From the NCBI GenBank assembly GCA_017409405.1, contig JAFQSU010000088.1:1-40831 (forward strand): DNA of 40,831 nucleotides, written 5' to 3'. The position numbers and the translations under genes are program-made. Position 1 is the first letter of the stretch; every line of letters begins with the position of its first letter. This stretch comes from Oscillospiraceae bacterium (lineage in GTDB: Bacteria > Bacillota > Clostridia > Oscillospirales > JAAYXM01). Below the pieces are notes generated by a model, which worked only from the letters and a program-made list of their open reading frames with translations, was not told where the DNA came from and made no database searches. Positions 1 to 9,747 of the stretch are shown here, in pieces.

Positions 1-3000
1 TCCGACTCAAGACCGAATGCACGAACGAGGAGTATTGCAAAGTCAGCACGTGTTATATTGTTTGCAGGTGAGAAGGTGGTCTCACTTGTTCCCTTGATGA
101 TGCCTGCCTTCGCAAGTTCGTTGATTGCGTCAGTTGCCCATGCGTGGGAAGTAAGGTCGGTGAATCGGATATTTGCCGTGTTGCCATTTTCCACCTCATC
201 CGCCTCGCCTTCGCTCGGCACCTTCTCCTCAAGGGGAAGGCTTTCATCGTCGTCCCCTACATTTTCGTCCGTATCGGGGGCAGGTGCGGCACCGCCTCCT
301 CCGCCGCCACCGCCGCCGGACGGTGTGTCGGCCGAGCCTTCGCTGTCGTTATCTGTTGACGGTTTACTTGTCGTTGAGCCGTATACCTTAATATCAAAGT
401 GGAGTGTTGCCTCACGTCCATCGTTATCGACAGCCGTTATTGCAACGTGGTTATCTCCTATCTGACTTGCAGAAGGCTTCCATGTAAAAACACCGATTTG
501 GGAATCCAAGCTCGCACCGCGAGGAAGAGTCGTACCGACATACGTTATCGTCTTCGGAGGCTGAGATGTAATCGGGCTTTTGGCATTAACATCTATCGTT
601 ACAGAGCTTCCTGCACTCACGCCCATATCATTGTCTACCGTTTCAAATTCCGGAACGCCTTCATCCACAAAGCTCGTGTATACGGTTGCGGTTTGTCCGT
701 CTCTTACATTATACACATACCCTTCATCCGGGTTTTGGATATCAATATGTCCGCGGATTTGAGTTATAAGTCCTGTATTTAAACGTATATCTCCGTTTTC
801 GAGCAGTTTTGCTGACGTTATCTTGTAGGTGCCATTGCGCACCTCATCGTTATCTACAAATACATATTTGTTTGCAAACGCAGCATTTGCCTCTTCATCG
901 GTCATATTGAGCTCACCGAAAGCTACATCAATATAATTCTCTGTAGAAATCGTATTCCGATACCCTGTAACCTCACCGACAAAGCTTCCGCTACCTATGT
1001 CCTCTCCGACCGTTCCGATAACACTTCCATCGTGGACATAGCGATATGTGTTCACTCCGTTCTGTACGGTATACACGCCGACAAAGCCCTTGAAGTCAAA
1101 CGTATCGTCAACGCGATATGTTACGGTGTTATTTGTTGCATATACGATATAATCAACTCTTCCGTTTTCATGTTCGACTTTGACTGCATATGCAACGTCA
1201 TCTGTCGCAGGAGTTCCTTTTGTCACTTTGACGGAGCAGGCATTCATATCACGGATATAACGTCTTCCCTCCTTATACGGTTCAAGAACCGTAGTGAAGA
1301 GGCTATCAAGAGTTTCGCCCTCTTCTGCCTCGCGGTGAATCATAACGTTATCTATCCAACGAGGAACGTTTTTATTCTCCGCACGCTCAGGCGTGGGTCC
1401 CTTTGCGATTGCAACCTCGCTGGGTGTGAAGTCACTCAGCTGAGTAAGGCGAAGAACTATATCATCACCGCCGTCGGTAATCTTCTTCCAGTCCTCTACG
1501 TCAAACTCAACAGCTATTTTCTGCTCGGGTGACAAATCGCGGCGAACATCCTTCAGCCATGTATAGCCTCTGGGATATACTGTTTTATATGTATATTCGT
1601 TGGGTGAATTCGGGTCCTTTCCGACAGGATAATCCATCGGTGCACCGAAATTCGCGGCATATGTCCCTATGTACGGCGTATTGGGTGTTCCGTCCTCAGT
1701 CTGATAGCTAAGCTCTATTCCACCAACCGGGTATGCGTTCTGCGCCTGAGAATGAAAGCTGTAGGTGTGAACACTTCCTCCGGTAACACGGAAAAAGTCT
1801 ACGCCGTAGGACACACTGTCATTCACCTGAACCATTACAACCGTTCTGCGGTAGTTGTCTGCCTGAGCATACGCCCACGGAACGGATACATCCATCAGCT
1901 GAACCTTACCCGAATCGTCAAAATGGAGAGGATATCCGTGAACATTATTAGGTCTGTCCTGCGTCTCACGGTCAATGCTTACCGTATTGTGAGCAAGCGC
2001 CTGACTTGTCCACTGCCAGCGCTCGGGGAAGTAACCGGACTCTGTCGGATAACCGAGGTCGGGCGCGATGTTAAGACCATAAGCATCCATACCAATATTG
2101 AGTGTGTCGCGGTGAGTATGACCGTTATTGCTGTTAAAGGTCATGAAGATGCTTCGCTGGGTGTTTGTTCCCTCGTCACTCTTTTCCTTTGAATAAAGTG
2201 CGCCGTCGCGAAGGATTGCAAACGCATATCCCGGCATCATTTCGCTGTCAAAAACAGGAACACTGTCTTTAACTATATCTATTATCTCATCCTGAATACT
2301 TTCGGGGTTGTTCGCAAATATTCCGTAATTGATGCTATCAACGTCATATCCCGAGGTTATATACAGCATCCGGGCAAGACATTCTCTGACCTCTTTTACA
2401 GTTTCCTCCGGAAGCCCCATTTCACTGATTTTCTGAAACATCGTAATTGAAGCTTCTTCATCAAAATGGATGTTGTCACCGCCCGTTCCTCTTGTATCTC
2501 CATTCTGCGCGGTATAGTAGTGCGATACAAGAAGAGGACGGAACGCCGTATACATCGCTATAAACTTCGGGTGAGTATACAGCTGATATTCTTCTGCGTT
2601 CTTGCACTTACTCAGTGCCTCGGCAAGCTCAGAAAGCTGACCTATCCAGCCGAGAAGGTACTCGGGCGAAACCTCATCGCCCAGTCCCTCACGGTGACAG
2701 ACATCAACAAGCGTCGTTGCAAGCTCTCCTCCGTTATACCAGAAGCCTTCTCCATTTGCGTATCTGTCGAGCAGCTTTTGTGAATGCGGCTTGCTTTTGC
2801 CGTGGTTTGTACTCGTCTTCCAGAGCCATTTGATTCGCTCGGAGCTCTCAGGCTCTTTGTCAAGAACAAGCGCCGTCAGCGCAACAAGGCTTTCGTCATG
2901 ACCGTAGTTTGCATCATATCTGCCGCTCTGTACGTAATCCCACATCGGCTCAATGAGATTTTTCTCCCAATTCTTCCAAATGTCGTAAGCCGAGCCTTTA

Positions 3001-6000
3001 TAGGAAACACTTCCGTTCCACTTATTTTCTGCCTTATCTTCAAGGAAGTTTATAACCTCAAGATTTTCAAGACATTCAAACACTGCGTCTGCGGCTTTTA
3101 CGTATCGAAGCGATGCCGAGCAGTCGGCATATGCGCCGAGAATATGACCGTGACCCGTTACACCAGAGCTTGTTTCAAAGAGCGCTCCCTGATATACCAT
3201 ATGGTCATAAGTCGGATAAACATCTGCCAAGCGATCAAGAAGTATCGCGCACGCGTTACCGTATTTCGCATCATCTGTATATAAATACGCATCTGCAAGG
3301 CTTGATATCGCATTTCTGTATGTTTCAATAAAGCAGTTTACATATGCGGGTATGTAACAGTGATTTTCGGCAATGCACGAATTTGCATCGGGAGCTGTTG
3401 TCGCATTATCAAGCGGATTTGCGAGATTACAGACGTGGTTTGGGTCAAAGCGGTTTGCGCAGTACGCCGTACCGTCAGGCTTTAAGGGAATGTAGCCTTG
3501 TCCGTCATCAACGCCCCAATCCTCTATCTTCTCTCCCTCGCGGAGTGCACCGTATTCACATACGCCTGTAAGGTCGTTGTACAATTCATTTTTCAGTGCG
3601 TCCTTTTCGCCTATGCTTACGTAATAAGCATTCAGCTCACGTGCAAGCTTTGTATCGAAATAACCGTACTTTTCAACGCAACGGTTATAGAAAAGCCCAA
3701 AATCGTTGGTCGGAAAGCGTCGTTTGCAGTTGAGACACTGAATTTTCCACGGATAATTCACCGGGTCTATATGCCATTCTCCGTCATCACCGTCACCGAA
3801 AGCGAGCGCACTGTCAACACCACACCAACGGCAACAATGTCCAAAATCATCGTAATTTAAACCGACACTTCTTGAGCGCGGAATACCCTCTGCCGGAAGA
3901 TTATCATACAGTGTTTCGTAGATATCCAAATAGTGTTCCGCACTTGCTGTTGCCTCTTTCTGCATAGCTTTTGCCCATGCGTATTTCTGTACATTATCAA
4001 GTGCGTTTTTACGCATGTCTTCCGTGTAGTAATTCGACTCGGTCTTCCCCTCATCAAGCACAATCTTGAAGGTGACGGAACTTTCGATCCTCTCGCCCTT
4101 AAACTCTGCCTTTGCAGTAAGAGTTACATCGCCCTCAAGATTATCTGTGTTTGCAAAGACCTTGCCGGTTTCGTCCACCGTAACAAGACCCTCGGGTTGG
4201 ATAGTGTACTCAACATTTTCGTTAAACGGGAACTTGAGGACATTTCCGCTTCGCATTTTTATGTTCCACTCAAGGCGTTCTGCACCGCGGACATACAGGA
4301 CAGACGGAAAAGAAAGCCACGTTTCCTCATGAACAATACCCGTGTTGTCATTCGCGACAACCGCAATATCCTTTGAGCGCGAGCTTGTGGTATCGGCAAC
4401 TGTTACGGTGATTGTTTCCGCACCGTCGCCTATACCCTTGACAACGCCGTTTTTTACTGTAACTCGGTCGTTATATACCGTACTGTACTCCACAGTGTAT
4501 TCGCTTTCATCCATCTTGGTATCATCAAGACGGAAGGCATCAATGGTAATTGTTTCTTCCTCATTATAGCAAATCTCATTGTCGGAAATGCTTACATCAA
4601 TATAATCAAGGTCATTTATACCGTTGAAATAAAGCTTTTTAAGTCGTACCTGCGAGCCTGTATCGCCTCGCCTGAAAACAAGGACGTACTCTCCGGCTTC
4701 CGGAACATTGAAGCTTTCAAGCTTTGCCGTTCTGATTTCATAGCTCGGAGTCTGATCCTTAAAGCTGTCGTCGCGGCTGTTAAAGCTTCCGATATAATAC
4801 TTGTCAACGCAGAAATCGTCAATAACATCGTTATAAACGTCATCCGATACGCCCTTGATGATCGGTATCAGATACAAATCCGCACTTCCTTGCGAATAGG
4901 TCGCATAATATTCAACCTCTGCGCTGTAACGCCCTGCCTTGGGTATCTTAATATTCAGAGCGGCGTAGCTTGTATCCACCTTACCGGTCGAGTCGGTGCC
5001 AAAGCTTACGCGCATATGGCTTGACTCCGTTGTCGGAGCGGTGAAGGTCGATGTCATATCGTTGTCATCGGGAGTCCATGAGCCAAAGCCCTCGGCACTT
5101 CCGACGCCACGGTATTCCCAGTTGCCGGAATATTCGTATGTAACGCCGCGGATGTCGTTCTGTTTTGCGGTATTTGCATCAGGGTATCCTGCCGCAATAA
5201 CCTTTTCGGCGTTCCATGACGTGCTTACATTCAAAAAGTTATATAAAATATCCTCACCACTCCAGTCCATAGCTGCACTTGGAGCATCTATTTCGTACAG
5301 ATAGGTTTCCGTATAGCCCTGTCCGTCAAAGATATAGCTTGCCGTGATTACTGTTATACCCGGCTTCAGCTCTGTGATTTCACCGCTTGCAGAATCGATT
5401 GAAGCAACAGTCGGGTCGGAACTTTGATATGTAACCGTCACAGCGTCGGTAAGGTCGCGTCCGTCGGAAAGCATACCGGAAACGGAGGCTTTCTTATCCT
5501 TCACCGTCATTTCAGAGCTTAAGATTACGGTCTTGTCCGCACTTGAGAATACAAGCTTTGTAAATCCGATGCGGTTTCTGTCTGCATGAGCGCGACGGAA
5601 AACAAGAAGATACTCTGAAACGCCCTCCGAAAGCGTTACCTCGAAGGAATGCGGGCTTACATTGTCCGTCATACTTGTTACGGCAGGGTAGCTTCCGCCA
5701 TTCAGCGCAGTCCATATATACTCTCGCTTTTCCGCGTCGGTCGCAAGCTCCGTCTGAGGTGCCGGAATTAAGTAAATATCAAAAAGCTTAAAATAGTTCT
5801 TTACAGTTTCATAGTTATAGAGCGTTGCGTTGAAATTGCCGCTGCCGACAACGTCAAGCTTGAATGCCGCCCAATCGCCGATTTGCGATTCTTTGTAAGC
5901 ATCCTCTGTCTTTCCGTAGCCTACATAAACCTGTGTGCCATTGCCGTTGGAATAGTAAAACGTACGGTTGACACCGTTACTGTTAAAGTATTCTGCACCT

Positions 6001-6152
6001 TCGCTGTAAACGTATGTTTCCCAGTTTTTGTTCGCGTTGTTTTGGAAGTCATACTCCATATAGTACGGAGATGGCTTGACGGCATTTGTTACAGGCAAAA
6101 GCGCAGTTATCATGCATATTGCAAGCACAAATGACAGTAGTCGTTTCTTCAT
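1..6152 (-). CDS. Giant secreted heparinase II/III-like surface protein with SLH domain (3' end cut by window)
   Basis: The frame is open for about 2,050 codons from ATG 6152 to the window edge; I checked the phase at five separate points. RBS AAAGGAGAAAGTGAGG precedes the ATG. Order of parts by residue: signal peptide 1-24; jelly-roll-like module about 28-205 shared with the protein at 7356-9551; Ig-like (BIG2-type) about 212-287; second carbohydrate-binding-like module about 292-512; Ig-like about 514-600; helical lyase-like region from about 700; heparinase II/III C-terminal core with NNGHTHRDTLNIGMD (His1345, His1347); putative Ig domain about 1837-1922; a linker with nine consecutive Gly and an acidic tail; SLH domain from about 1997. 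The heparinase family cleaves uronic-acid polysaccharides; the substrate here is unknown. SLH domains bind cell-wall glycan, so this should be a cell-surface enzyme. More SLH repeats probably lie beyond the edge. Lyase activity is inferred from family resemblance only. Confidence 0.85.
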   Translation of the reverse strand, partial: MKKRLLSFVLAICMITALLPVTNAVKPSPYYMEYDFQNNANKNWETYVYSEGAEYFNSNGVNRTFYYSNGNGTQVYVGYGKTEDAYKESQIGDWAAFKLDVVGSGNFNATLYNYETVKNYFKLFDIYLIPAPQTELATDAEKREYIWTALNGGSYPAVTSMTDNVSPHSFEVTLSEGVSEYLLVFRRAHADRNRIGFTKLVFSSADKTVILSSEMTVKDKKASVSGMLSDGRDLTDAVTVTYQSSDPTVASIDSASGEITELKPGITVITASYIFDGQGYTETYLYEIDAPSAAMDWSGEDILYNFLNVSTSWNAEKVIAAGYPDANTAKQNDIRGVTYEYSGNWEYRGVGSAEGFGSWTPDDNDMTSTFTAPTTESSHMRVSFGTDSTGKVDTSYAALNIKIPKAGRYSAEVEYYATYSQGSADLYLIPIIKGVSDDVYNDVIDDFCVDKYYIGSFNSRDDSFKDQTPSYEIRTAKLESFNVPEAGEYVLVFRRGDTGSQVRLKKLYFNGINDLDYIDVSISDNEICYNEEETITIDAFRLDDTKMDESEYTVEYSTVYNDRVTVKNGVVKGIGDGAETITVTVADTTSSRSKDIAVVANDNTGIVHEETWLSFPSVLYVRGAERLEWNIKMRSGNVLKFPFNENVEYTIQPEGLVTVDETGKVFANTDNLEGDVTLTAKAEFKGERIESSVTFKIVLDEGKTESNYYTEDMRKNALDNVQKYAWAKAMQKEATASAEHYLDIYETLYDNLPAEGIPRSRSVGLNYDDFGHCCRWCGVDSALAFGDGDDGEWHIDPVNYPWKIQCLNCKRRFPTNDFGLFYNRCVEKYGYFDTKLARELNAYYVSIGEKDALKNELYNDLTGVCEYGALREGEKIEDWGVDDGQGYIPLKPDGTAYCANRFDPNHVCNLANPLDNATTAPDANSCIAENHCYIPAYVNCFIETYRNAISSLADAYLYTDDAKYGNACAILLDRLADVYPTYDHMVYQGALFETSSGVTGHGHILGAYADCSASLRYVKAADAVFECLENLEVINFLEDKAENKWNGSVSYKGSAYDIWKNWEKNLIEPMWDYVQSGRYDANYGHDESLVALTALVLDKEPESSERIKWLWKTSTNHGKSKPHSQKLLDRYANGEGFWYNGGELATTLVDVCHREGLGDEVSPEYLLGWIGQLSELAEALSKCKNAEEYQLYTHPKFIAMYTAFRPLLVSHYYTAQNGDTRGTGGDNIHFDEEASITMFQKISEMGLPEETVKEVRECLARMLYITSGYDVDSINYGIFANNPESIQDEIIDIVKDSVPVFDSEMMPGYAFAILRDGALYSKEKSDEGTNTQRSIFMTFNSNNGHTHRDTLNIGMDAYGLNIAPDLGYPTESGYFPERWQWTSQALAHNTVSIDRETQDRPNNVHGYPLHFDDSGKVQLMDVSVPWAYAQADNYRRTVVMVQVNDSVSYGVDFFRVTGGSVHTYSFHSQAQNAYPVGGIELSYQTEDGTPNTPYIGTYAANFGAPMDYPVGKDPNSPNEYTYKTVYPRGYTWLKDVRRDLSPEQKIAVEFDVEDWKKITDGGDDIVLRLTQLSDFTPSEVAIAKGPTPERAENKNVPRWIDNVMIHREAEEGETLDSLFTTVLEPYKEGRRYIRDMNACSVKVTKGTPATDDVAYAVKVEHENGRVDYIVYATNNTVTYRVDDTFDFKGFVGVYTVQNGVNTYRYVHDGSVIGTVGEDIGSGSFVGEVTGYRNTISTENYIDVAFGELNMTDEEANAAFANKYVFVDNDEVRNGTYKITSAKLLENGDIRLNTGLITQIRGHIDIQNPDEGYVYNVRDGQTATVYTSFVDEGVPEFETVDNDMGVSAGSSVTIDVNAKSPITSQPPKTITYVGTTLPRGASLDSQIGVFTWKPSASQIGDNHVAITAVDNDGREATLHFDIKVYGSTTSKPSTDNDSEGSADTPSGGGGGGGGGAAPAPDTDENVGDDDESLPLEEKVPSEGEADEVENGNTANIRFTDLTSHAWATDAINELAKAGIIKGTSETTFSPANNITRADFAILLVRAFGLES
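5697..6050 (-). repeat. Diverged duplicate, copy 1 (N-terminal module coding DNA)
   Basis: Encodes residues about 35-150 of the heparinase-like protein. Two patches, about 5697-5784 and 5951-6049, are nearly identical in DNA to 9122-9210 and 9345-9443, with only a few mismatches each. The DNA between them is clearly diverged. This mosaic suggests duplication followed by local gene conversion. Confidence 0.7.
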
Positions 6153-6201: not shown

Positions 6202-6230
6202 ATAGTAACATTTTCTTCTGACCACGGCAA
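6202..6230 (-). promoter_or_regulatory. Promoter of the heparinase-like gene
   Basis: On the minus strand TTGCCG (6225-6230) and TACTAT (6202-6207) are separated by 17 bp, about 50 bp before the start codon. Each box matches consensus at 4 of 6 positions. A weak promoter with a motif just upstream of its -35 box suits an activator-dependent gene. Confidence 0.55.
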
Positions 6231-6238
6231 CAGAAGCA

Positions 6239-6259
6239 TTTGCCAAATCAGGCATATTT
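6239..6259. promoter_or_regulatory. Putative operator, copy 1 of a 21-bp shared motif
   Basis: The plus-strand motif reads TTTGCCAAATC, then A, GGCA, then T, ATTT. It differs at only two positions from the motif at 9635-9655. It holds an interrupted dyad, TGCC-N6-GGCA. It ends 8 bp before the -35 box of the heparinase-like gene, the same distance as at the second copy. It lies between that gene and the divergent AraC gene, so the AraC protein is the likely binder (inference). Confidence 0.65.
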
Positions 6260-6293
6260 CCTATTGCGCAAACAAGTTTATATGTGGTAAAAT

Positions 6294-6299
6294 TATAAT
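6294..6299 (+). promoter_or_regulatory. Possible -10 box of the AraC gene
   Basis: TATAAT lies 34 bp before the AraC start codon. I see no good -35 box at the usual distance. The shared motif at 6239-6259 lies just upstream, so autoregulation is possible. Confidence 0.3.
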
Positions 6300-6333
6300 A
6301 AACATTCTGATACAACAGAAAGGTTGACGCCGG

Positions 6334-7308
6334 ATGAATGAATATATTGCAAAGAACACACCGGGTATACAGCTCGCAAATGAGTTTATGAGATATCTCC
6401 CATTTAAGGTTTATACATATAACTCCCCTATGCATCTGAACGAAGTGTATCATATGCACTGTCATGAATATTCTCATCTCTGCTATGTCATCAAAGGAAA
6501 TCTCAACCTTTATCTCAATGACGGAAAATATGTTTTAAGACCGGGTTGCTGCACCTTCCTTCCGCCCTTCACCTTACACGATTCATGCACCGACCCCGAT
6601 GATACAGACATTGATATAATCAACATCTCTTTTCACGACAAGGCACTTCTTGACCGCAATTATGATTTCTTTTCATGCCGGAAAGACTTTGTCCGCTTTG
6701 AGGGTAAATCAATTCCGATGTTCTATCAATTTGACGAAGATGTCCGTCCGGAGGCGGAGGCACTTATACGCACCGTTTCAGACGAGTTTAACAAGCGTAA
6801 GGAAATGTCCTTTGACGCGATTGCAGAGCAGGTTGCCCGATTTTTGAGACTTTTATGCAAAGACTCAGCAGACGCACCTACAAGAAAGCTTGCATATGTT
6901 AAAAAATACAGCTATGCCATTATTCGCGTCATAGATTATATCAGCCTGCACAGAAGCGAAAAACTGACCATCGACAAGCTTTGTGATGTTGCAGGCATGT
7001 CGCGGAGACTGTTCACAAACCAGTTTTTTGCAGTAACCGGAATGTCGTGTTCACAGTTTATATTCCACCTTCGGCTTTCAAATGCAAAGCACTTTCTTGC
7101 CCACACCACACTTAACGCAGGCCACATTGCACGTGATGTCGGGTTTGTGACCAATGCACGGCTCACCCATGTTTTCCGTGAAAACCTCGGAACTACTCCC
7201 GGAGAATACAGAAGCAGATTCCCGACCGGGCTTGAGGATGATATGGACTACTGGAAAATCTGGTCATGGTTTCGCAAAAAGGATTTTGAAAGGTTAGAAA
7301 TAGTGTAA
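6334..7308 (+). CDS. AraC-family regulator with N-terminal cupin domain
   Basis: 324 residues. The N-terminal part (about 25-130) is an AraC-type cupin, with a His-rich strand HMHCHEYSH at 40-48 and a later LRPGCCTFLPP turn; this fold normally binds a sugar or small ligand. The C-terminal part (about 200-295) carries the two helix-turn-helix motifs of AraC proteins, ending in the typical GTTPGEYR signature. A 29-residue tail rich in Trp and charged residues follows. The gene is divergent from the heparinase-like gene and convergent with the second secreted gene. The matching motifs upstream of both secreted genes make it their probable activator; this is inferred from position and motif spacing. 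The start at 6334 follows an AGGTTGA-type ribosome site. Confidence 0.9.
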   Translation: MNEYIAKNTPGIQLANEFMRYLPFKVYTYNSPMHLNEVYHMHCHEYSHLCYVIKGNLNLYLNDGKYVLRPGCCTFLPPFTLHDSCTDPDDTDIDIINISFHDKALLDRNYDFFSCRKDFVRFEGKSIPMFYQFDEDVRPEAEALIRTVSDEFNKRKEMSFDAIAEQVARFLRLLCKDSADAPTRKLAYVKKYSYAIIRVIDYISLHRSEKLTIDKLCDVAGMSRRLFTNQFFAVTGMSCSQFIFHLRLSNAKHFLAHTTLNAGHIARDVGFVTNARLTHVFRENLGTTPGEYRSRFPTGLEDDMDYWKIWSWFRKKDFERLEIV

Positions 7309-7316
7309 AAAGGGCG

Positions 7317-7350
7317 CAGAGGGATACCGAGCAATGTCGGCATCCCTCTG
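7317..7350. terminator. Bidirectional terminator between convergent genes
   Basis: Hairpin with 9-bp outer arms CAGAGGGAT/ATCCCTCTG and an inner CCGA/TCGG pair. On the minus strand it is followed by a T-run from 7311-7307, inside the end of the AraC gene. On the plus strand the following T content is weaker. Confidence 0.7.
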
Positions 7351-7355
7351 TTGGT

Positions 7356-9551
7356 TTATTCTGTTATTTCTACCGCATCGGTATAGAGTACTCTTATCGT
7401 GCCGGAGCTGTCCTTATAAATAAGATAGCCGCGGACATAAGTCTGCATACCGTCTGTCACATTCGCGCCACTTGCAGGCTTTGCGGCAAACTGACCGTGA
7501 GCCTTTCCTTCCTTCGTCTTTGCCTTTGCATAGTAGCTGCCTATATTGATTTCAGCACTTGTGCCGAATATAAGACCTGCCTCAAGAGCCGTACCATTGC
7601 CCTCGTCATACTCTATCATGTATGCACCGTTTGCAGGGTCATCAAGAAGAACGATAGGTCTTTTGCTGAGCAGCTTTGCCTTTGATAGGGTTATGCCTGT
7701 CGGATCCCATACAAAGTATTGGTATGTATCGCCGTATGCAACGAGTCTGCCGTCGCGGTACCATTTTGTGACGCCGCTTACCGTCTGCTTTATTTCACTG
7801 CCGTATACCGCAGACGTTATGTTTTTATGCGCATTCTCATCGGTCATATAGGTCAGTGTCTGAGAAAGCTTAACTTCTTCATCCTCATACAATGCAACGA
7901 CAGAAATGCGTTTGTCAATAACCGTAGCATCGGTCATCTCCGTGTTTTTATCAATTCCCCAGCCGATGTGCCTAAGTCCTGTCATAGACGGAGTCGGCAC
8001 ACTTTCGCTTATGCTTGCAAAGGTATCCCCTGAGGTGACCGGAACAAAGCCGAGATAATCGCGGTTTGCGTCATAGAAATCAACACCGATCTCAGTGCTT
8101 GCAGTCTTTTCCTTGAACACAGCAACAAGAACTGTGTTTGTATACGGAGTGAATTTGTAGCTTATCTCGTCACTTACAAAATCGCCCGAAGCGTCTGTCC
8201 AACAAGAGAATTCATATCCCGGATTTGCCGCGGCCGTGACTGTTGTTTCTACACCTGCCGTAACATCTTCAACTGCACCCGACACTGTTCCTCTGCCGTC
8301 TTTTGCGTAGGTGTAAAGCTTGACACTTTCGTGAGCCTCGCCGACGATCTCCGGCTGCTTTGTCAGAGAAAGTAAAGAAAGATGCAGTGCGGCCGAAGTA
8401 GAGGAGCCCAGACCTGTCTTTTTTATTACGCACACCAGATAATCGGCGGTTTCAGGCATATTCACCTCAAACGAAAACTCCGTAGGTCTGTCACCTGCAG
8501 GAATACGCGGCGTAGTAGCCGCATAGTAGGTTCTGTCGGCTATCTTGCCCTCTACAAACTCTCTTTTTAAGGTATCTGTGCTGCATGCAGTGAGCTCACT
8601 CTCTGTTATCGGTATAAAATAAAGCTCGTGGTTACCCTGAGAGAAATAAGATGTTGTTGTACCGGATTTCAGCACAGCATCATAACTGCCACTTGATACC
8701 GGAAGGAGCAATGATACCCAATCGTCGGCATCTGCCATCTCTATAATCAAGTTGGTATCTTTGGTCTGCATAAAGGTGCGGTTTGTAGTTCCGAGACTGT
8801 TGGTACTAAGGACATCTTCTTTGAAGACAAACGCGCTCCAGCCGTTACCCGTTACCTCTGCAGAAAAAACCTTTGACGGCTCGGTTGAATTCATCCCATA
8901 TGTAGGGGAAGAGGATTTCGCACATGCGGTAAGGTCAAAATTATACTCTGATGGAGCAACCTCTTCAGGCTTTTCTGCAAACGTGAGCTTTGTAAAGATT
9001 AAACGGTAGCTTGTACTGATTCGTCTTATAACAAAAAGATATTCCGAAGCACCCGTTTCAAGCGTAGTTTCAAACGAATGTGGGCTATCGGTATTAAGTT
9101 GTGTTACTGCAGGGTAGCTTCCGCTATTCAGCGCAGTCCATATATACTCTCGCTTTTCCGCGTCGGTCGTGAGCTCCGTCTGAGGTGCCGGAATTAAGTA
9201 AATATCAAAATTTTTGAAATAATTTGGATAGTCTGTGTGATTATACATCATTGCATTAAATTCGCCATTAGAAGTAATGTCAAGTTTAAATGCAACCCAT
9301 TCACCTTCTTTGCTGACGTTTACCTGCATAAAAGTTGGTGAAGAATAGTAAAACGTACGGTTGACACCGCTACTGTTAAAGTATTCTGCACCTTCGCTGT
9401 AAACGTATGTTTCCCAGTTTTTGTTCGCGTTGTTTTGGAAGTCAAACACCATATCCGCCTCATCCTCAGCCGATGCTGATACGCACATTGCCGGCAAAAG
9501 CGAAACAGCCATGCAAAGCGCAAGAACAAGCGATAAAAACCTCTTTCTCAT
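7356..9551 (-). CDS. Secreted multi-module protein, companion of the heparinase-like protein
   Basis: 731 residues. Signal peptide with a likely ASA cleavage after residue 28. Residues about 30-200 form the same module as the N-terminus of the 1-6152 protein (shared NNANKNWETYVYSEG and PAPQTEL segments). Residues about 203-402 look like a diverged second copy of that fold. Residues about 403-485 resemble a bacterial beta-repeat (Gly-Tyr-Glu-Phe plus Trp pattern), and 486-565 resemble a Listeria-Bacteroides (Flg_new) repeat with HIGWGID. The C-terminal 165 residues are a predicted beta-rich region I do not recognise. No catalytic motif, SLH domain, LPXTG or transmembrane tail is visible, so it may be released or held by protein-protein contacts. 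AGGAGGAGT precedes the ATG. Its promoter and motif match those of the heparinase-like gene, suggesting a joint role in binding or handling a polysaccharide (inference). Confidence 0.85.
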   Translation of the reverse strand: MRKRFLSLVLALCMAVSLLPAMCVSASAEDEADMVFDFQNNANKNWETYVYSEGAEYFNSSGVNRTFYYSSPTFMQVNVSKEGEWVAFKLDITSNGEFNAMMYNHTDYPNYFKNFDIYLIPAPQTELTTDAEKREYIWTALNSGSYPAVTQLNTDSPHSFETTLETGASEYLFVIRRISTSYRLIFTKLTFAEKPEEVAPSEYNFDLTACAKSSSPTYGMNSTEPSKVFSAEVTGNGWSAFVFKEDVLSTNSLGTTNRTFMQTKDTNLIIEMADADDWVSLLLPVSSGSYDAVLKSGTTTSYFSQGNHELYFIPITESELTACSTDTLKREFVEGKIADRTYYAATTPRIPAGDRPTEFSFEVNMPETADYLVCVIKKTGLGSSTSAALHLSLLSLTKQPEIVGEAHESVKLYTYAKDGRGTVSGAVEDVTAGVETTVTAAANPGYEFSCWTDASGDFVSDEISYKFTPYTNTVLVAVFKEKTASTEIGVDFYDANRDYLGFVPVTSGDTFASISESVPTPSMTGLRHIGWGIDKNTEMTDATVIDKRISVVALYEDEEVKLSQTLTYMTDENAHKNITSAVYGSEIKQTVSGVTKWYRDGRLVAYGDTYQYFVWDPTGITLSKAKLLSKRPIVLLDDPANGAYMIEYDEGNGTALEAGLIFGTSAEINIGSYYAKAKTKEGKAHGQFAAKPASGANVTDGMQTYVRGYLIYKDSSGTIRVLYTDAVEITE
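9122..9445 (-). repeat. Diverged duplicate, copy 2 (N-terminal module coding DNA)
   Basis: Partner of 5697-6050, in the same orientation and 3.4 kb away, encoding residues about 36-143 of the second secreted protein. Third-codon positions also match in the two conserved patches, so protein-level selection alone does not explain the identity. Confidence 0.7.
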
Positions 9552-9597
9552 AATCTACTCCTCCTATTATAAATAAATCTATACTGAGTATATCATG

Positions 9598-9626
9598 ATA
9601 ATATCAATTTAAGCTTTTCTTGTCAA
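9598..9626 (-). promoter_or_regulatory. Promoter of the second secreted gene
   Basis: TTGACA (minus strand, 9621-9626), a 17-bp spacer, and TATTAT (9598-9603). The spacer length equals that of the heparinase-like promoter. Confidence 0.75.
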
Positions 9627-9634
9627 TGCACACT

Positions 9635-9655
9635 TTTGCCAAATCGGGCAGATTT
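9635..9655. promoter_or_regulatory. Putative operator, copy 2 of the 21-bp shared motif
   Basis: The plus strand reads TTTGCCAAATC, then G, GGCA, then G, ATTT. It matches 6239-6259 at 19 of 21 positions and lies exactly 8 bp upstream of the TTGACA box. This is the usual position for an AraC-type activator contacting RNA polymerase next to -35. Confidence 0.65.
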
Positions 9656-9713: not shown

Positions 9714-9747
9714 CAACAGCCACGCAGAGGCTTCTGCGTGGCTGTTG
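9714..9747 (-). terminator. Hairpin ending the purine/fhs operon
   Basis: A perfect 15-bp stem (CAACAGCCACGCAGA and its complement) with a 4-base loop, 17 bp after the fhs stop codon. The T-rich stretch lies on the plus-strand side (9748-9757), so the intrinsic signal is not classical for the minus strand, though placement fits the end of the operon. Confidence 0.6.

Follow-up and report, generated by a model that had tools for sequence, protein, structure and literature searches.

The window analyzed here is the entire 40,831-nucleotide contig C84 of an Oscillospiraceae assembly, and the genomes with which it was compared were draft metagenome-assembled genomes (MAGs). Near one end of the window, two genes for secreted surface proteins (genes 1 and 2) flank a gene for an AraC-family regulator, and a 21-bp motif recurs in front of each of them. 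These two copies are treated below as the putative operators of the adjacent regulator (operators 1 and 2). The label 'secreted' refers to signal-peptide-like N-termini judged by eye. The features of the module, in window coordinates, were as follows.

3..6152, minus strand: gene 1, encoding a secreted product of 2050 aa or more that carries a signal peptide, Big_2, Hepar_II_III_C, He_PIG and SLH; its end runs off the contig.
6202..6230, minus strand: predicted gene 1 promoter, -35 TTGCCG (6225-6230), 17 bp, -10 TACTAT (6202-6207), in the aligned register of the family sites.
6239..6259, minus strand: putative operator 1, AAATATGCCTGATTTGGCAAA in promoter orientation, in the gap that separates gene 1 from the AraC gene.
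6264..6293, plus strand: candidate AraC gene promoter, TTGCGC-18-TAAAAT, predicted from sequence and back to back with operator 1.
6334..7308, plus strand: AraC-family regulator, 324 aa, with an N-terminal AraC_binding/cupin domain and a C-terminal DNA-binding domain of two helix-turn-helix (HTH) motifs.
7000..7017, plus strand: start of recognition helix 1, SRRLFT; Arg225 (7006-7008) tracks GC in the -35-distal half-site.
7144..7176, plus strand: recognition helix 2, FVTNARLTHVF; the positions of Asn274 and Arg276 covary with the -35-proximal half-site.
7317..7350, no strand assigned: terminator-like hairpin where the AraC gene and gene 2 converge.
7356..9551, minus strand: gene 2, secreted protein of 731 aa; N-terminal part common with gene 1, then Flg_new_2 and a widely repeated C-terminal region.
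9598..9626, minus strand: predicted gene 2 promoter, -35 TTGACA (9621-9626), 17 bp, -10 TATTAT (9598-9603).
9635..9655, minus strand: putative operator 2, AAATCTGCCCGATTTGGCAAA in promoter orientation, serving gene 2.

Domain matches for the regulator were above the family cut-offs at both ends. The C-terminal domain matched HTH_18 (67.7 bits, cut-off 33.6) and HTH_AraC (40.9 bits, cut-off 26.6), giving the expected pair of HTHs, and the N-terminal domain matched AraC_binding (42.2 bits, cut-off 21.1) and the cupin family Cupin_2 (30.8 bits, cut-off 27.2).

Sites and promoter layout were computed directly from the window. Both 21-mers were found at the positions listed and differed at 2 of 21 positions, as the preliminary description of this DNA had reported, and its 8-bp gap to the -35 box and 17-bp promoter spacer were likewise borne out for both. 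A consensus promoter scan recovered the gene 2 promoter only; the gene 1 promoter, which has a poor -35, was missed. Taken alone, the 19/21 match is weak evidence, because each dinucleotide-shuffled window gave 0-1 arbitrary pairs of this quality (4 shuffles, 41 kb). What distinguishes the sites is their common position relative to -35 and their uniqueness within the assembly, rather than the identity itself. At ≤3 mismatches the pattern occurred at these two places only in the 1.94-Mb assembly (reversed control = 0), so the random scatter across the genome that had been named beforehand as grounds for rejecting the proposal was not seen. Identity outside the motif was low (2/8 between motif and -35, 8/17 in the promoter spacer, 21/80 upstream and 20/52 downstream). 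Since the flanking promoter DNA is unrelated, the motif is more than a piece of a recently copied promoter. A scan of relatives for the exact 21-mer, suggested as a check, gave no match within 3 mismatches in 4 congeners, and the 21-mer is a local variant only; G008, a genome of the same family, had two 3-mismatch matches. A TGCC-N6-GGCA palindrome was tried as a signature of the family sites and rejected, as most sister operators were non-palindromic and the palindrome belongs largely to the local sites. At 9714-9747, a strong terminator-like hairpin of 15 pairs intervenes between operator 2 and the next gene, on the convergently placed side of the latter.

The window AraC belongs to a large set of relatives, with at least 30 in its own genome and at least 38 in the congener with the most; many of these genes are divergent from long secreted genes, and the closest relative is 36% identical. 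A single-sequence scan of a collection of genome contigs with the window AraC found no relative, and a scan with a narrower AraC alignment returned two MAG relatives and one distant Cohnella match. For de novo motif discovery, 31 AraC/divergent-gene intergenic regions, with the window left out, were searched by expectation maximization at width 44. The choice of width matters, because widths of 20 and 30 settled on the ribosome-binding/start region and missed the operator. The motif at width 44 was t.AAAtAAAAAT.G.CCGATTTtaCAaC...tTT.TTTGAATTt, i.e. AAA..GCCCGATTT..CAAC plus TTGAAT, and the layout learned was AAAtnnGCCCGATTTnnCAAC, 6-9 bp, TTGAAT, 17-18 bp, TAnnAT. Nearly all of 29 loci had the core 6-9 bp from a -35-like TTG and a -10 after a further 16-18 bp, a fixed position relative to the promoter. 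With the core alone, scores exceeded those of shuffles (p<0.05) in 12/18 untrained loci, and also at the window locus.

Both window sites shared the register of the learned family motif. A position weight matrix of the core, trained without the window, ranked site 2 at the top of the whole window (p ~1e-6 per position) and site 1 fifth (12.2 bits, p ~3e-5 per position), and a covariance model based on sequence only, from which the window was excluded, detected site 2 with E = 0.0014 across its own genome. Scanning the genus with the model gave many strong matches in G000, G001, G003 and G004; G002 had no operator below E=0.03 and was also without relatives of the 731-aa protein. As judged from these alignments, the conserved family element is GCCCGATTTnnCAA, and the window 21-mer is one predicted version of a genus-wide operator. 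GTCAA (reverse complement TTGAC) stood beside the operator in many paralogous loci. Two further arrangements were noted in intergenic regions. L055 (G004:C108) carried tandem operator copies, with ATACGCCCGATTATTCAAC twice, about two helical turns apart, before one gene. L023, L024 and L025 (G000:C82, C89 and C78) carried repeats such as CATTCTGAGCG...GAAGAATCTC and GGGGAGGG between operator and gene or alongside; these repeated stretches look like dispersed intergenic repeats.

Operator matches were tabulated for 53 places, 39 of them with an AraC gene within 3 kb, and in most cases the match immediately preceded a secreted, lipoprotein or catabolic gene. Many of the 53 were training sites of the model, whose matches are built in, and the independent ones are the window sites and the untrained loci. 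Several modules had multiple sites around one AraC gene with a common local variant: G000:C89 (GATTTGTAAACG), G004:C13 (GATTTTACAACA), G004:C182 and the window (GATTTGGCAAA). Site pairs within a module were more alike than those between modules (12.3 vs 10.1 of 18, p=0.007; the 11 within-module pairs are not independent), which supports the idea that a shared variant marks the targets of one AraC. The 'small dedicated regulon' proposed at the outset is supported in its shared local variant and falls in its isolation, the window being rather one module within a large paralogous network. Strong operators without a related AraC in the stretch examined were seen at G004:C165:80390-80447, G004:C98:411-469, G003:C8:14775-14832 and G001:C79:5147-5203; AraC-less operators are possibly remote targets or orphaned modules.

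If the adjacent AraC is the protein that binds, operator changes are expected to follow the recognition helices of that AraC. Covariation was computed across 30 non-redundant loci by partial Mantel tests, which lessen the effect of shared ancestry and do not remove it. Helix 1 covaried with the -35-distal half (r=0.30, p=0.001), and helix 2 with the -35-proximal half (r=0.37, p=0.001). For the sensing domain, the partial correlations with the two halves were not significant (r=0.12, p=0.10; r=0.00), and in an earlier alignment the upstream flank did not correlate with the DNA-binding domain (r near -0.06). At single positions, GC at core bases 6-7 was associated with Arg at helix-1 position 3, being present in 13/14 loci with this Arg vs 0/16 without it (Fisher p=1.2e-7, or p=1.1e-6 if one by-eye register correction is omitted). 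Mutual information placed helix 1 on base 7, and helix-2 positions 4, 6 and 9 on bases 15-20. The read-outs of the two helices were thus ~10 bp apart, so that the half-site spacing of the AraC/XylS family was recovered statistically, by covariation; this spacing fits a single two-HTH domain, for which MarA and RamA are the precedent (PMC8811837). The window conforms to the same pattern: its AraC carries Arg225, and both of its sites carry TGCC with the expected GC. At L043 (G004), helix 2 is FTTKNRL, similar to FVTNARL in the window, and the operator likewise has TTTGGCAA.

Given Arg225, GC in both sites and the covariation across the family, it is most likely the adjacent AraC that occupies both sites, acting as an activator. 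The earlier claim that the AraC/cupin protein binds and controls both surface genes is accordingly the most likely account, in view of the layout that recurs beside paralogous AraCs and of the agreement between helices and operators. We consider it probable that the AraC at 6334-7308 uses both 21-bp sites as operators, through which both surface genes would be activated in a ligand-dependent manner. One AraC DNA-binding domain would occupy each site, with HTH1 (SRRLFT) reading the -35-distal half (TGCC) and HTH2 (FVTNARL) reading the half adjoining -35 (TTTGGCAAA), one helical turn away. Placed directly upstream of -35 with HTH2 facing sigma, AraC would hold sigma and RNA polymerase on the two promoters of the same layout. 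Ligand sensing by the cupin domain would turn both surface genes on, and an oligosaccharide or sugar acid derived from the polymer that the surface enzyme attacks is the probable ligand. Activation is likely because of the position of the sites and the protein family, and the same inference has been made for the AraC regulators of Caldicellulosiruptor bescii (PMC8579813). Autoregulation is likely as well, because operator 1 is back to back with the likely promoter of the AraC gene itself. Two operator copies would be needed because the AraC gene separates its two targets, where many sister modules have their targets in one apparent operon. Binding by the window AraC, activation, the sugar-type ligand and autoregulation are what we infer from the computed sites and covariation.

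Several observations weigh against this account. Site 1 was weak in the full promoter covariance model (7.9 bits), and its -35 is poor. The covariation cross-terms were small and non-zero (r=0.13, p=0.04; r=0.15, p=0.02). Some operator matches had no AraC in the stretch examined. At 36% identity, the best relative of the window AraC is not a close ortholog by which conservation of the exact sites could be judged. Repression, or binding of the window sites by sister AraCs, may also be considered.

If sister AraC paralogs or a single master AraC bound the sites, the shared core GCCCGATTT would be read in a cross-talking network rather than by a dedicated regulator. The 30 to 38 or more related AraCs per larger genome, the single operator core common to the modules and the operators without a neighboring AraC all favor such an arrangement. 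It is nonetheless unlikely, since the operator variants covary with the recognition helices of the adjacent AraC, the sites of one module have local variants in common, and the window variant is confined to its two places in the assembly. It is somewhat less probable again that the AraC occupies its predicted sites yet works mainly as a repressor, or in both directions according to ligand. Operator 1 does abut the likely AraC gene promoter, and AraC itself acts dually. The sites, however, immediately precede weak TTGAAT-type -35 boxes without overlapping the promoters, which is the usual position for an activator (PMC8579813, PMC8811837). A dimeric, LacI-like repressor of another family on the TGCC-N6-GGCA inverted repeat is very improbable: the short repeat is present in the window sites, but it is missing from most sister operators, the two halves track two different helices of one AraC, and the sites are upstream of -35, not over the start. 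Finally, the view that the motif is a functionless remnant, left when genes 1 and 2 were duplicated or underwent gene conversion, is largely refuted and hardly credible, for despite the near-identical DNA blocks in their 5' coding parts, the flanks are unrelated next to a 19/21 motif, and many unrelated loci have this core at an equal distance from -35.

The glycan context claimed for the module was upheld by the domains of gene 1, which are heparinase II/III-like (Hepar_II_III_C), Ig-like (Big_2) and SLH. A degradative enzyme beside a regulator, as in the Gram-positive polysaccharide utilization loci (gpPULs), was found by domain match as the Hepar_II_III_C protein and the AraC (catalysis predicted). 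Big_2 with Hepar_II_III_C, as in gene 1, also occurred in the giant proteins of 3/4 sister modules examined. When the PDB was searched by sequence for the enzyme region, an alginate lyase (AlgL17, E=0.01) was the sole match, and a weak one. No transporter was seen among the genes nearest gene 2, which were not searched systematically, and on the opposite side the contig ends. Relatives of the central part of gene 1 (1473-3935, minus strand) lay in very long open frames of ~1000-3900 aa, and candidate places for them numbered 24 in G000, 74 in G003, 59 in G001, 64 in G004 and one in G002; giant heparinase-like surface proteins, as predicted from sequence, are strikingly expanded. Where genes 1 and 2 encode their N-terminal parts (5529-6152 and 8950-9551), near-identical DNA blocks were separated by diverged stretches, a gene-conversion-like pattern. 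The C-terminal part of gene 2 (7359-8290, minus strand, residues ~420-730) recurred in ~20 secreted proteins of its own genome and in up to 50 per congener genome; it had no Pfam match beyond Flg_new_2 and is possibly an undescribed surface or binding domain.

Comparison with described systems placed the module near several of them. The gpPULs of colonic Firmicutes (Roseburia/E. rectale) have an AraC regulator beside polysaccharide-degrading genes (PMC5320581). The modules described here are similar in their local AraC beside degradation genes, and sister modules hold lipoprotein genes resembling ABC solute-binding proteins; they differ in that no transporter was seen in the window module, the targets are giant SLH surface proteins, and one AraC subfamily and operator type is reused. 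PecR and other AraC regulators of C. bescii are next to secreted polysaccharide lyases, have sites upstream of the promoter and were inferred to be activators (PMC8579813). Like PecR, the window AraC adjoins a gene for a secreted, predicted polysaccharide-degrading protein with an upstream site and a presumed activating role; in contrast to the tandem repeats with large spacers of C. bescii, a single asymmetric site of ~20 bp is typical here, with tandem sites only at L055. For class I and II activation by MarA/SoxS/RamA, the two HTHs of one monomer occupy adjacent major grooves beside sigma region 4 (PMC8811837). The same geometry (SoxS structure 7w5w) is proposed here, although the window AraC has a cupin sensor, which those proteins lack, and its site is upstream of -35 without overlap. 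NCBIfam matches to RhaS/RhaR covered nearly the whole protein in the same cupin plus two-HTH layout, at 40-59 bits against family cut-offs of 288-525, and nothing in the window indicates rhamnose genes. YSIRK-adjacent surface antigen regulators (TIGR04094) also stand beside a surface protein gene, but that match was confined to the DNA-binding domain (43.5 bits, cut-off 200), and no YSIRK signal was seen in the targets. Statistical matching of helices to operators is established for other families (Prot-DNA-Korr, PMC5045206).

An AraC gene beside polysaccharide-degrading genes is a known arrangement, and the mechanism is conventional. What appears to be new is that tens of giant-enzyme modules reuse one AraC subfamily and promoter layout, under a code that can be read; a literature search, which left most subscription journals outside, found no paper on such an AraC-operator network. 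We put forward tentatively, as a possibility somewhat short of even, that the genus operates tens of insulated switches for sensing glycans, all built from a single duplicated AraC subfamily; every switch would retain one common promoter layout and have an operator variant of its own, set by a simple recognition code, such as helix-1 position-3 Arg for GC in the distal half. If true, this would be a natural orthogonal set of AraC-operator pairs governing giant heparinase-like surface proteins, whose family is unusually expanded. A repeat spotted by eye has led here to a family of regulators and operators in which specificity appears readable from sequence, and how duplicated regulators avoid cross-talk in one cell could be addressed with ~30 natural AraC-operator pairs. 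It would also offer a route to the targets of many uncharacterized giant surface enzymes of ruminant gut Oscillospiraceae, and possibly a source of orthogonal switches.

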